Shown piece after piece: positions 16,555 to 36,945 of a stretch of DNA of 64,000 nt. Origin of the DNA: Calliopum simillimum (taxonomy: Eukaryota > Arthropoda > Insecta > Diptera > Lauxaniidae); contig OX638372.1 of the NCBI GenBank assembly GCA_951812925.1, forward strand, positions 50,867,722-50,931,721, given 5' to 3'. How positions within the stretch are numbered: the first letter of the stretch is position 1; each line of letters opens with the position of its first letter. The notes beneath the pieces are model-generated. The model made no database searches. It had not been told where the DNA came from and was given only the letters and a program-made list of their open reading frames with translations. The position numbers and the translations under genes are program-made.

Positions 16555-17735
16555 TAGTTTATAGTTTTTTAAAAAAATTTTCAAATTGAGTTTTCAGCTT
16601 ACGATCGTTAGAAAAACGCTTGGTTTACTCAAAACCAAGGCATCTACGAAAAAATTTCATATGGCGTAAAATGCTAAGAATCTTTTCTTAGAATTTTTGT
16701 AAACTTTTTTTTTATTTTTTGACCAAGTTTTTGGAAAATTATAAAATATCTCCAAAAGTTCAGAAAAACTCACACGTATTTTTTGGATAATTCTAAGCAT
16801 TTTTTGCCAATAACACTTTTTTCGTTAAATGCCTTGCTTACGAGTAAAAAATCGTTTTTCCGGCCGCGTAATTGAAAACTGTAAAAAAATCGATATCGGT
16901 ATGCGAATATTATCTATGAAGCAAAACACGCCAAGTTTACCAGGTTTAAATTTTTTTATCTCCGATTTCGCTCAAATTTGGCAATATGGTAGATCCGGTG
17001 TGCAAGAACAACAATCCGGGAGGATTTGGTCCTAGTACTATTTGTTGTTAAAACACAGGGTGTTGAAGTTGGCGTTTTTAGTCATTTTCATGATAAGGGT
17101 GTTTTTTCAAAAATTTTTAGCTTACACTAAAGTTTGTAAGTTTATATATCTAAGTTACTGGTCCCATTCATTTTGAAGTGTTCTTTTTATAAAAAAATAT
17201 TTCTTGGTGAAAAAATTTTTTTTCACCAAAACTTTTTACACTTAAAAATATTTTTGAATTTTTTTTAAAAAAAACCATCTTCGATTTTTTTTAAAAGTAC
17301 TTTAGGTTAAAGCATAATTTATAAGCTTTAAAATGATGTATGACTCAAGATGGGATTCGGACGCTACATGGGTGTTTTTGGCTTTTGAACGCTGAAGGCA
17401 AAAATCTTTTTTTACTCGAGAGGAAAGCATCTTACGTTAAAAGTGTACTAGGCAAAAAATGCTTAGAATCGTCTAAGAAATACGTGTGCATTTTTTTGGA
17501 ATTTTTTAAAACTTTTTTTTTTTGAATAATTTTTGAAAAATTTTTTTTAATAAAAATTTTTTTTAAGAATTTTTAAGTGTGTTACTTAATGACATTTATG
17601 TATTGAAAATTGATTTTTTTTTTAAATGAACTTTTAGTCATATATTTGCAAAGATCGATTTACATATAAATCTATCAATGCATTTTCTAACACATAATTA
17701 TGACTAATCAAGGAACGGATTAAAAACACGGCTAT

Positions 17736-17780
17736 GGTGACATATGTTTCGTCTTTCGCCACAAAGACTCATCAGACTAT
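17736..17780 (-). ncRNA. hammerhead ribozyme, minimal stem III type
   Basis: On the minus strand: CTGATGA (17775-17769), GTCTTT (17768-17763), loop GTGGCG (17762-17757), AAAGAC (17756-17751), GAAA (17750-17747), CATATG (17746-17741), UC (17740-17739), with predicted cleavage before 17738. Stem II is a perfect 6-bp helix, both invariant core strands are intact, and CATATG is a self-complementary minimal stem III as in repeat-borne hammerheads. Stem I pairs ATAGT (17780-17776) with ACCAT (17738-17734): four of five pairs, with one A-C mismatch. A single C-to-T change would complete it. The chance of all these parts falling in order at random is low, but activity needs a cleavage assay. Confidence 0.8.
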
Positions 17781-17867
17781 TTTTGTTGTAATTATAATTA
17801 TTTTTATTTCACTAAATTAATTATAATTGAAAAATTGCAAGTTTGAAAACTTTGTGTTTTTGGCCTG

Positions 17868-17948
17868 GGCGGGAGTTGAACCAAGAACCTCCAGGTTGGT
17901 AGCAGAAGTCGTTACCACTGCACCAGCCTTGCCCGGCTGCGAAGCCGT
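17868..17948 (-). other. tRNA-like head of copy A (box A and box B)
   Basis: The minus strand carries GGTGCAGTGGTAACG and, 42 bases after its start, GGTTCAACTCC: good Pol III A and B boxes at tRNA spacing. The terminal GCCGGGC can pair with GCCCAGG with one irregularity. It is not flanked like a tRNA gene and runs into the repeat body, so it is probably a SINE head. A degenerate true tRNA is less likely. Confidence 0.7.
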
Positions 17949-19315
17949 CTTTTGCCAGTTTTGTTTGTGTGTTAATACGTATTGATAAATCATAATTGTT
18001 GTTTGTGTTATTTATTGATATTTGGTATAGTTGTTCCTTTGGAACAAATTCAATACCGATTGCAGGTGTTTCCACCTTATCAGGGCGTGTTCTCCCAAAT
18101 AACTTTAAGAATTTTTAAGTGTGTCACTTTAGTGTCTTACTTATATGTAAATCGATCTTTGCAAATATATGACTAAAAGTTCAATTAAAAAAAAAAAAAA
18201 AAAAAAATCAATTAAAAATTTTTGCAAAAATTATTGAAAGGAAAAAATTTTTTTTTTTAACTTTTTAAAAAATTCCAAAAAAAAACCTCACTTATTGCTT
18301 GGTCGATTCCGAGCATTTTTTGCATTGTACACTTTTTACGTAAGATGCTTTCCTCTCGAGTAAAATAAGATTTTTGCCTTCAGCGTTCAAAAGCCAAAAA
18401 CACCCATGTAGCGTCCGAATCCCATCTTGAGTCATACATCATTTTAAAGCTTATAAATCATGCTTTAACTTAAAGTACTTTTGAAAAAAGTTTTAGCTGG
18501 GTTTTTTTAAAAAAAAATCAAAAGTATTTTTAAGTGTAAAAAATTTTGGTAAAAAAAAAAATTTTTCACCAAGAAATATTTTTTTATAAAAAGAACACTT
18601 CAAAATAAATGGGACCAGTAACTTAGATTTATAAATTTACAATCTTTAGTGTAAGCTAAAAATTTTTGAAAAAACACCCTTTTCATGAAAATGACTAATG
18701 ACAAATGGTACTAGGACCAAATCCTCCTGGATTGTTGTTTTTGCACACCGGATCTACCATATTGCCAAATTTGAGCGAAATCGGAGACAAAAAAATTTAA
18801 ACCTGATACACTTGGCGTGTTTTGCTTCCTATATCTCTTAAAAAAATTTATAATTTTTAAACGCCAAAATTTAATTTTGTAATAAAAAGTGATGACTAAA
18901 AAACATATTTTTTATCCAAAACGGGCCTTCATTAGGATCAGAAGTGCTCCATTGGTTTTTCTCGGAATAAAAAAAAAAAAAAAAAAAAAATTATGCAGAT
19001 ATCGTTTTTAAGATGAATCTAAATTTCTAGTGTTTGTTCCCAGAGAAACAAACCCGCCAAATTGACTTTGTGCGCAAGTGGTGTGCTACAAGCCAAAATT
19101 TTGAAGAAGATACCATCAAAGCATTATTAAGTGGTGTTCCAGAAAAAATAAAAAATTTTGCGCTTCGAAATTAATAATTTGTTTTTCGATCTTATTTTCT
19201 TTATTTGAATTAAATTTGTCTTAATAAACTATGAACTTTTTGAAAATTGAAAGTCTGGTTACTCAGATATACAATATTTATTTCTCAATTTTTTTTAAAA
19301 AATACAGTAGTTTTC

Positions 19316-35105: not shown

Positions 35106-35664
35106 GATGGACGTTCATTGTGTAGATTTTTTCTATGATATGAATCTTTTATTAGGAATATTGCAAACCAAATTTCAATTTCAATAAAATCGTGCAAAAT
35201 CAAATGAAATTGTTGTTAATGGTAGTTCGTGTTATCCATTGAAAACTTTTCGTAATAAAAAATAAATGGCAACACCTGCATTATTGTTCTCCTTTTCACT
35301 TTAATTTTCATAATGAACTTAGCATTTATCCCTCTCTGTCCGCAGTTCATGCATACATACTAGTGAAATGAGCAACAATCCAACAGAAAAGTTCGATGCG
35401 CATCCCCAAGATGCAATAGCGATGCGCGTCCTTCTCGCATCTAAAGAGCTGATGTTGATACGCATATTTTCTGCGCTGTAGGTAGGCAATAGGCAGCTTT
35501 ATTTTTTTGTTTGTTTTTCTTATTTTAAATATTTTTTATTGTCATCCATAGAGCATTTCTGGTAGCGAGAGCGAAGCGCATCCAAAGAGCATTTCTGGTA
35601 GCCAGAACAAAGCGTTTTCGGTCACGTATTTACGCAGAAAACAAAATAAGCCAATAAGTAAGCT

Positions 35665-36940
35665 ACGTTAGAGCGCAAGGATGGAGCAGTGGTCTTGCGA
35701 CTGGCACAGCGATTGAGAGTTGTAGCAACCGTGAGTCCTCGGTTCAACTTGCAATTTTTAAATTATAATTAATTTAGTGAAGATACAAACCATTTCAAAA
35801 TTTGTTCATGGAATCCGATTTGGCTGAAAATTGTCGTAAGTAATAGTAGCATAGTGAGAAAAATTACTACCAAATATTTTTTCAAAATTTAAAAAAATGG
35901 CGGAGATATGGGAATTGGGAATTTTTAGGAAAGTTTTTTTTTTGAGAAGGTATAACTTTAGTTGCATTTATCCAATTCGCAATTTGATGGTGTCAAATGG
36001 TTAGCTTGAAACAGGCTTTAAAATAAAAATCAGGAAAAATTTTTTTTATATTGTTTACACTGAAAAAAAAAATTTAAATTGAGTTTCCCAGAATACGTAA
36101 TTTTAAATATTTTTTAATTTTTCTTACAAAAAAAGCTACAGGTGTAACTTACCAGTCCTCCAAAAATTGGAGTAGGCCCGCCAGTGGTTCTCCAGAAAAA
36201 CAATAAAATGTAGTATCTTCCACAATTTTTCAGTACATTTTTTTAATTTAAAATTTTTATTAAATAAAATTTTCAAATGCTGAAGTAAGTTTATTGACTG
36301 TTTTTTTGCTTGTACAGTACTAATATAAGTACCAACGCACTTTTTTCAAATTCAAATTAACGTTTAATTAAAAATTTCAAATTCAAAAAAATTGTACTGA
36401 AAAATTGCGGCAAAAGCCACATTTTATTGTTTTTCTGGAGAACCACTGGGAGGCCCACTCCAATTTTTGGAGGACTGGTAAGTTACACCTGTAGCTTTTT
36501 TTGTAAGAAAAATAAAAAATATTAAAAATGACGTATTCTGGGAAACTCAATTTAAATAATTTTTTCAGTGTAATCAATATAAAAAAATTAAAAAAAATTT
36601 TTCCTAATTTTTATTTTAAAGCCTGTTTCAAGCCAAACCATTTGGCACCATCAAATTGCGAATTGGATAAATGCAACTAAAGTCATAGCTTCTAAAAAAA
36701 AAACTAACCTAAAAATTTCAAAATGTCCCATATCTCCGCCATTTTTTTAAATTTTGAAAAAATATTTGATAGTAATTTTTCTCACTATGCTACTATTACT
36801 TATGCCAATTTTCAGCCAAATCGGATTCCATGAACAAATTTCGTGATCGTTTACAAGTGGTTTGTACCTGAAATAAAAATAATTATAATTACATCAAAAA
36901 TAATAATAGTCTGATGAGTCTTTGTGGCGATAGACGTAAA
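35665..36940 (+). mobile_element. tRNA-headed ribozyme repeat, copy B, split by a foldback
   Basis: Tract 35665-35781 has GGAGCAGTGGTCTTGCG (box A) and CGGTTCAACTT (box B, 58 bases later, a longer variable region than copy A), then the AATTATAATTAATTTAGTG body. The body resumes after the foldback at 36869 and ends in the ribozyme-like segment at 36908-36940. A direct repeat containing TAGCGAGAGCG flanks the whole tract (35520-35590 and 36958-37022). Confidence 0.65.
35782..36868. mobile_element. foldback element, 1087 bp, TGAA target duplication
   Basis: Arms of about 370-400 bp start GATACAAACCA and end in the mirror TGGTTTGTACC. Inward they pair through TGTTCATGGAATCCGATTT and AATGGCGGAGATATGGGAA. 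TGAA stands on both sides (35778-35781, 36869-36872). Removing the element leaves the same sequence as uninterrupted copy A, which confirms the insertion. Confidence 0.88.
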
Positions 36941-36945
36941 ATATA
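36905..36945 (+). ncRNA. degenerate hammerhead ribozyme (copy B)
   Basis: CTGATGA (36911-36917), GTCTTT, GTGGCG and ATAGAC (36930-36935) are kept, but stem II has one mismatch. The core GAAA reads GTAA and the stem III/cleavage part is lost in an A-rich run. It is expected to be inactive. Its value is as evidence that the ribozyme belongs to the repeat and not to one locus. Confidence 0.7.

Follow-up and report, generated by a model that had tools for sequence, protein, structure and literature searches.

A type I hammerhead ribozyme motif lies on the minus strand of the window, a stretch of 64,000 nucleotides (nt) from the lauxaniid fly Calliopum simillimum (contig OX638372.1, positions 50,867,722 to 50,931,721). 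The motif belongs to a family of dispersed repeats with a unit of ~541 nt, in which head-to-head insertions are common, and a shorter relative of this unit forms tandem arrays that run to the ends of large contigs. Our best explanation, which as a whole we consider likely, is that the hammerhead is part of a retrozyme-like element that is mobilised by a Penelope-like enzyme and has a relative in the terminal arrays.

The hammerhead motif and its repeat family

All of the hammerhead elements named in a preliminary description of the window, which was made from the sequence alone, are present on the minus strand where that description had placed them (Table 1), and stem I of this copy is paired at 4 of 5 positions, as it had claimed. 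The layout, open at stem I and with a very short, palindromic stem III, is that of a type I hammerhead; the core CUGANGA...GAAA, three helices and an NUH cut site are all found. To place this copy in its family, we used an alignment of 37 segments from 30 loci (L001-L030, L001 being the window's own copy). The family consensus pairs 5/5 in stem I, 6/6 in stem II and 3 in stem III. Across the family, the 3' strand of stem I mostly reads ACTAT, which pairs fully with ATAGT, and the ACCAT of the window is a minority variant found also in L002 and L024. Among 61 parsed copies with distinct flanks, the core and stem II are each intact in 59, stem III in 50, stem I in 47 and all of them in 39, a tally in which a lengthened type from the right end of C4, one of the six large contigs (C1-C6) considered below, was misparsed and scored as broken in stems I and III.

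The repeat unit has an A box at u206 (unit position 206), a B box at u249, the ribozyme core at u358 and the predicted cut after u394; ~200 nt of it precede the A box, and it continues beyond the ribozyme. A 145-nt query across the ribozyme gave at least 42 matches in the genome, with 40 of the 759 first-look candidates scored; most of them are 97-98% identical to the query along its whole length. Because most matches span the full query, the repeat extends 3' of the ribozyme. For this reason we dropped a plain short interspersed element and also a unit starting at ACGTATT just after the cut, in which the following copy would complete stem I. An element ending at stem III was a guess based on the diverged copy at 36868-36945.

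How often would such a motif arise by chance? A relaxed descriptor (core CTGANGA, stem II of at least 4 and stem III of at least 2) has one match in the window, at this site. When applied to both strands of 100 simulated windows it gave 74 matches, 12 of them with a stem II of at least 6 and none that also paired at least 4/5 in stem I. Given these chance matches, the single window is only suggestive, and the genome-wide evidence decides. A strict descriptor (core, stem II of at least 5, stem III of at least 3, U16.1, H17 and stem I 5/5) found nothing in first-order simulated sequence (168 Mb, one strand) or in real sequence after reversal (0.72 Mb), whereas it matched 34 times in L001-L030 and 70 times in 12 contig-end loci; it has no match in the window, where the copy itself fails. 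The pattern CTGATGAGTC-GACGAAAC-GTC, with open loops, occurs 935+995 = 1930 times in the 690-Mb genome and 0 times in the reversed control. DNA-pattern scans of viral_contigs and genome_contigs gave 0 matches.

Several results weigh against a true hammerhead. The Rfam model RF00008 scores the window motif at 21.1 bits, below its threshold of 48.5, and neither the window nor 72 kb of contig ends hold a match at gathering score. A genome-wide covariance scan, called for by the preliminary description, gave no RF00163 hit at E<=0.001, with only 73 of 75100 candidates scored. The hammerhead of the window copy differs from its minimum-energy fold, which 160 of 200 shuffles equal or surpass in stability (z +0.72). 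In none of five isolated motifs is the hammerhead the predicted minimum fold; stems I and II both appear in it for three (the dispersed consensus and the motifs from the left ends of C3 and C2). Within the dispersed family, 96.0% of cells are paired versus 95.6% in shuffles, 148 of 500 of which are as high, and compensatory pair changes are absent, with 0 of 14 pairs changed on both sides among 13 distinct rows. In addition, the strict descriptor was devised after the motif had been seen, and copies of the same family are not independent. The preliminary description had named three outcomes that would speak against a ribozyme, namely a genome without covariance-model hits, copies without compensatory changes in stem II and a consensus that does not cleave; the first two came out partly in this way, as there is no Rfam match at gathering level and no compensatory change. 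The gathering score is a sensitivity cut-off, not a structural feature, and the lack of compensatory change can be attributed to dispersed copies that differ too little to show any. A chance motif in a repeat would fit both the sub-threshold Rfam scores and the missing covariation, but it must contend with a strict descriptor that finds nothing in 168 Mb of null sequence and two unrelated families here (the second is described below), and with a consensus whose stem I pairs more completely than that of the window copy. We regard chance as very improbable, and hold with high confidence that the motif is a real type I hammerhead.

Copy structure and proposed mobilisation of the dispersed element

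Many dispersed copies are 5'-truncated and some are tandem, with spacings of 538 bp in L014 and 587 bp in L026 and several pairs in the genome 539-545 bp apart. Their 3' ends fall into two classes, a non-tail class at u495-540 and a tail class ~50 nt further on, at u20-40 of the next unit. In L001-L030 we counted 22 non-tail, 21 tail and 3 other ends, and in a second set of loci (L036-L060) 21, 17 and 4, respectively. Head-to-head copies, in which both outer ends are 3' ends, occur at 16 of the 30 and 17 of the 25 loci; they combine a tail with a non-tail end in 12/16 and 13/17 cases, and two tail ends in none. The 25 loci of the second set correspond to ~19 distinct insertions, 11 of them head-to-head and 8 of those tail/non-tail, and L058 is the same insertion as L002. 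Flanking repeats of at least 10 bp were found at 7 of 30 loci in the first set, versus 0.6% of 870 mismatched flank pairs, and at 8 of 25 loci (5 of ~19 insertions) in the second, versus 2.7% of 600 mismatched pairs.

Based upon these features, we propose that the ribozyme sits in a non-autonomous, retrozyme-like mobile element with a unit of ~541 nt. RNA of the unit, from tandem or single copies, would cut itself between GUC and A, and the palindromic ACAUAUGU stem III could let two RNA copies pair as a dimer. A Penelope-like reverse transcriptase would then insert the dispersed copies, starting at one of two internal sites, which may be why the 3' ends lie ~50 nt apart, and priming on both target strands would lead to 5'-truncated and head-to-head insertions. 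The closely related 385-410-bp unit, without the start-site/tail region, forms tandem arrays of one polarity at contig ends. Judged from anatomy alone, the dispersed element has probably been moved by a Penelope-like enzyme.

A close parallel is with Penelope/Poseidon elements such as PAc of Anolis. In excerpts of its description (PMC11167929), this element has a hammerhead and forms tandem or partly tandem copies; its reverse transcription begins at two neighbouring sites inside the element, with an optional tail of 30-40 bp between them, and each strand of the target is cut and extended. The family here shares the hammerhead and, as a genomic pattern only, the two 3' start sites with an optional tail, the extension of both strands and the tandem copies. 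It differs in that the unit has a tRNA-like region and no protein-coding frame (at 541 nt it is too short for one with reverse transcriptase and GIY-YIG domains), in that tail and non-tail ends mostly stand together in one insertion, and in that a shorter relative is arrayed at contig ends. Some observations argue against mobilisation by such an enzyme: most loci lack a long flanking repeat, some of the repeats are A/T runs, and Frangieh et al. (PMC11167929, in part) found that the start site did not differ between strands, in contrast to the joining of tail with non-tail ends seen here.

A candidate source of the enzyme is present in the genome. GIY-YIG gave at least 51 matches (150 of 209 candidates scored), two of them in open frames of 841 amino acids; four pairs of matches lie close together and inverted, and some, such as those on small contigs, could have a different origin. 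One of the 841-amino-acid frames (L093) carries both RVT_1 and GIY-YIG, and this Penelope-like copy has an 89-bp direct repeat and, towards its 5' end, an inverted 3' fragment of 95 bp (Table 1). It also counts against a link that this one copy, when compared with the unit, shows no significant similarity (best E 0.17), and therefore no partner is assigned. Of 40 reading frames from the sampled loci, the 30 longest were inspected by eye and not against Pfam; no Penelope-like frame was recognised among them. Separately, a hammerhead-like stretch, CTGATGATGAGTTG...CAACTCGAAA, with one base too many in the core, lies at L093:3309, between the stop codon and the direct repeat.

The preliminary description had placed the hammerhead in a tRNA-headed repeat. 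A and B boxes are both present, assigned by the general box consensus, but the tRNA-like region is internal and does not head the unit; neither ARAGORN nor Rfam calls a tRNA in it (17863..17937). The repeat could be an ordinary tRNA-derived short interspersed element (SINE), mobilised by a long interspersed element, with the hammerhead-like stretch as a passenger. The boxes, the high copy number and the 5' truncation would fit. Such a SINE carries its tRNA-like region at the 5' end; here the A box stands at u206 of 541, with ~200 nt of unit upstream, and tandem units, two classes of 3' end and head-to-head insertions with 3' ends on both sides are further points against it. Transcripts of RNA polymerase III terminate at T runs. 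Since TTTT and TTTTT runs lie between the B box and the ribozyme, a transcript from the boxes would probably stop before the ribozyme, and readthrough of the unit by a polymerase other than polymerase III seems more likely. The Sm-alpha SINE-like repeats of Schistosoma combine polymerase III-type boxes with a hammerhead. Overall, we judge an ordinary SINE to be improbable.

A second alternative, compatible with our best explanation, is a metazoan retrozyme without long terminal repeats, in which hammerhead-cut monomers circularise and the circle is reverse-transcribed. Parts of two accounts (PMC7229834, PMC7761336) describe such retrozymes as short non-coding repeats with a type I hammerhead that occur as dimers to arrays, and the family here has these traits, with no long frame, tandem dimers and ~400-bp tandem arrays. 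However, many of the dispersed copies do not reach the length of one unit, and their 3' ends group at two sites where a circle would allow them anywhere. We consider this route a serious possibility, if somewhat short of an even one. Penelope-like elements have been proposed as a strong candidate mobiliser of retrozymes (PMC7229834, in part), and the repeats described in excerpts of PMC7761336 carry no conserved motif that betrays their partner. In contrast to those repeats, the family here has insertion ends with a Penelope-like pattern, a tRNA-like region and a location at contig ends. With such insertion ends, the question of what mobilises animal retrozymes becomes testable. In another dipteran, Aedes aegypti, hammerheads in interspersed repeats have been published previously (PMC3088659, in part).

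Arrays of a shorter relative at contig ends

For each of the six large contigs we examined 10 kb at the left end and 2 kb at the right end, together with spot reads. A 385-410-bp relative of the unit is present at 7 of the 12 ends, at six of them as arrays running to the contig end (Table 1). Array depth, from spot reads and the motif list, ranges from ~3 kb at the left end of C1, where the first CTGATGAGTC-GACGAAAC-GTC matches span bases 369 to 2663, to 20-40 kb at the right ends of C4 and C5. Array units keep the tRNA-like region and the ribozyme, whose stem II loop is longer (GTGGCGAACG). Missing from them, relative to the dispersed unit, are ~u57-165 and the tail region (~u490-541, u1-29); in the unit at the right end of C4, stem III is lengthened with pairing preserved. 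The exact array-type motif occurs 98+134 = 232 times genome-wide and 0 times in the reversed control. Among the first 100 of these 232, listed in contig order, all lie within 25 kb of a contig end (C1 5, C2 none, C3 63, C4 32), on the plus strand at left ends and the minus strand at right ends. No ribozyme was found in the stretches examined at C4 left and at the right ends of C1, C2 and C6. Satellites of 376 bp at C4 left (L064) and 227 bp at C2 right (L071) look related by eye; no ribozyme was seen there.

The left end of C2 carries a different repeat, a 4.33-kb tandem unit with a second hammerhead, at L062:3911 and 8241 (+), which reads GCCAA CTGATGA GTCCG GCTAGGCG CGGAC GAA AAACGTTT A TTGGC. 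Its stems I and II are fully paired, with sequences other than those of the ~541-nt unit, and the two repeats share no significant similarity (best E 0.038). RF00163 scores it at 18.6 bits, below the gathering score of 34, with E 0.029 for the stretch concerned. Of the 12 ends, eight carry a hammerhead, and in all eight the ribozyme strand runs inwards from the contig end.

The array-bearing contig ends are likely, though unproven, chromosome ends. No run of three TTAGG or TTAGGG occurs in the 72 kb of contig ends. Parts of PMC12051294 and PMC7534423 describe dipteran chromosome ends that carry long tandem repeats in the absence of telomerase; the arrays here resemble them in their terminal location and units of hundreds of bp, and the word 'ribozyme' is absent from the main text of both. 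No paper in the collection searched combined hammerhead ribozyme, telomere, telomeric repeats and Diptera. Terminons, known from rotifer hosts, are also comparable. As excerpted in PMC7761336, they likewise place hammerhead-bearing retroelement material at chromosome ends, which here is a non-coding ~400-bp satellite.

How might such arrays be maintained? They could be a satellite that is maintained by unequal recombination among the ends of chromosomes, with the ribozyme uninvolved. Such recombination is a published idea for Anopheles gambiae (PMC7534423, in part), and arrays that are homogeneous within an end while unit lengths differ between ends (398, 402, 406, 385, 410 and 391 bp) fit local recombination. 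At C6 left, moreover, the example array-type units are altered around the cut site, and the strict descriptor matches no array-type unit there; both dispersed-type units there pass. Against this, the other six array-bearing ends have a strict hammerhead, and a second, unrelated hammerhead repeat stands at another end in the same polarity. We find the case for a recombining satellite evenly balanced. Alternatively, chromosome ends could be built by a telomeric retrozyme: RNA or circles of the 385-410-bp unit, cut by the hammerhead, would template extension by a Penelope-like reverse transcriptase, and the 541-nt element would be an escaped form that gained an internal start site. The inward reading of the ribozyme strand at all eight ends is the polarity that a template for extending chromosomal 3' ends would require. 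This polarity is not decisive, because recombination between ends needs the same polarity, and we consider the telomeric retrozyme rather unlikely. Even so, the intact array ribozyme offers an RNA-templated alternative to recombination, which makes the telomerase-free maintenance of long-repeat chromosome ends testable; that ribozyme-processed RNA helps to build chromosome ends is a testable possibility in this animal.

Features of the window and related loci

Table 1. Coordinates of the hammerhead, the repeat copies and the related arrays. Unless a contig or locus is named, positions are those of the window (position in L001 + 16215).
Feature	Position	Strand	Basis or remark
Type I hammerhead motif	17734..17780	(-)	sequence and family consensus
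Stem I, 5' strand ATAGT	17780-17776	(-)	sequence
Hammerhead core CTGATGA	17775-17769	(-)	sequence
Stem II GTCTTT / AAAGAC, 6 bp	17768-17763 / 17756-17751	(-)	sequence
Stem II loop GTGGCG	17762-17757	(-)	sequence
GAA	17750-17748	(-)	sequence
Palindromic stem III ACATATGT	17747-17740	(-)	sequence
C17	17739	(-)	sequence; predicted cut between 17739 and 17738
Stem I, 3' strand ACCAT	17738-17734	(-)	sequence
Near-complete 541-nt unit with 27-nt 3' tail	17561..18129	(-)	u568 to u1; holds ribozyme
3' tail	17562..17587	(-)	repeats unit start (18104-18129)
Unit start AAGTGACACACTTAAAAATTCTTAAA	18104..18129	(-)	direct repeat of tail
tRNA-like region	17863..17937	(-)	sequence; general box consensus
A box TGGTGCAGTGG	17925-17915	(-)
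B box GGTTCAACTCC	17882-17872	(-)
Inverted fragment of element 3' region	18141..18192	(+)	u464-515; head-to-head with main copy
Diverged, presumably older relative, first part	35622..35783	(+)	another tRNA-like region
Foldback element, 1.08 kb	35784..36867	(.)	inserted in diverged relative; 84.6% self-complementary
Same diverged relative, second part	36868..36945	(+)	decayed hammerhead
C1 left	runs to contig end		3 copies of 406 bp + 2 more
C3 left	runs to contig end		25 copies, 398 bp
C3 right	runs to contig end		385-bp units
C4 right	runs to contig end		410-bp units
C5 left	runs to contig end		25 copies, ~402 bp
C5 right	runs to contig end		391-bp units
C6 left	scattered in 10 kb		seven units: five with array-type loop, two of dispersed type
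Repeats of Penelope-like copy	L093: 458-552, 546-634, 2928-3022, 3391-3479

Because the window's two copies are head-to-head, both outer ends of the insertion are 3' ends of the element; no clear flanking repeat was found around it. In the diverged relative, the hammerhead has decayed by a change of GAAAC to GTAAA and the loss of one stem II pair. The small contigs C7 and C8 (L067, L068) hold long frames that look bacterial by eye and are probably symbiont or contaminant DNA. Finally, two inverted arms of 212 nt (17300-17511 and 18264-18475), 91% complementary, flank the ribozyme-repeat insertion in the window, and seem to be a palindromic element into which the repeat inserted.
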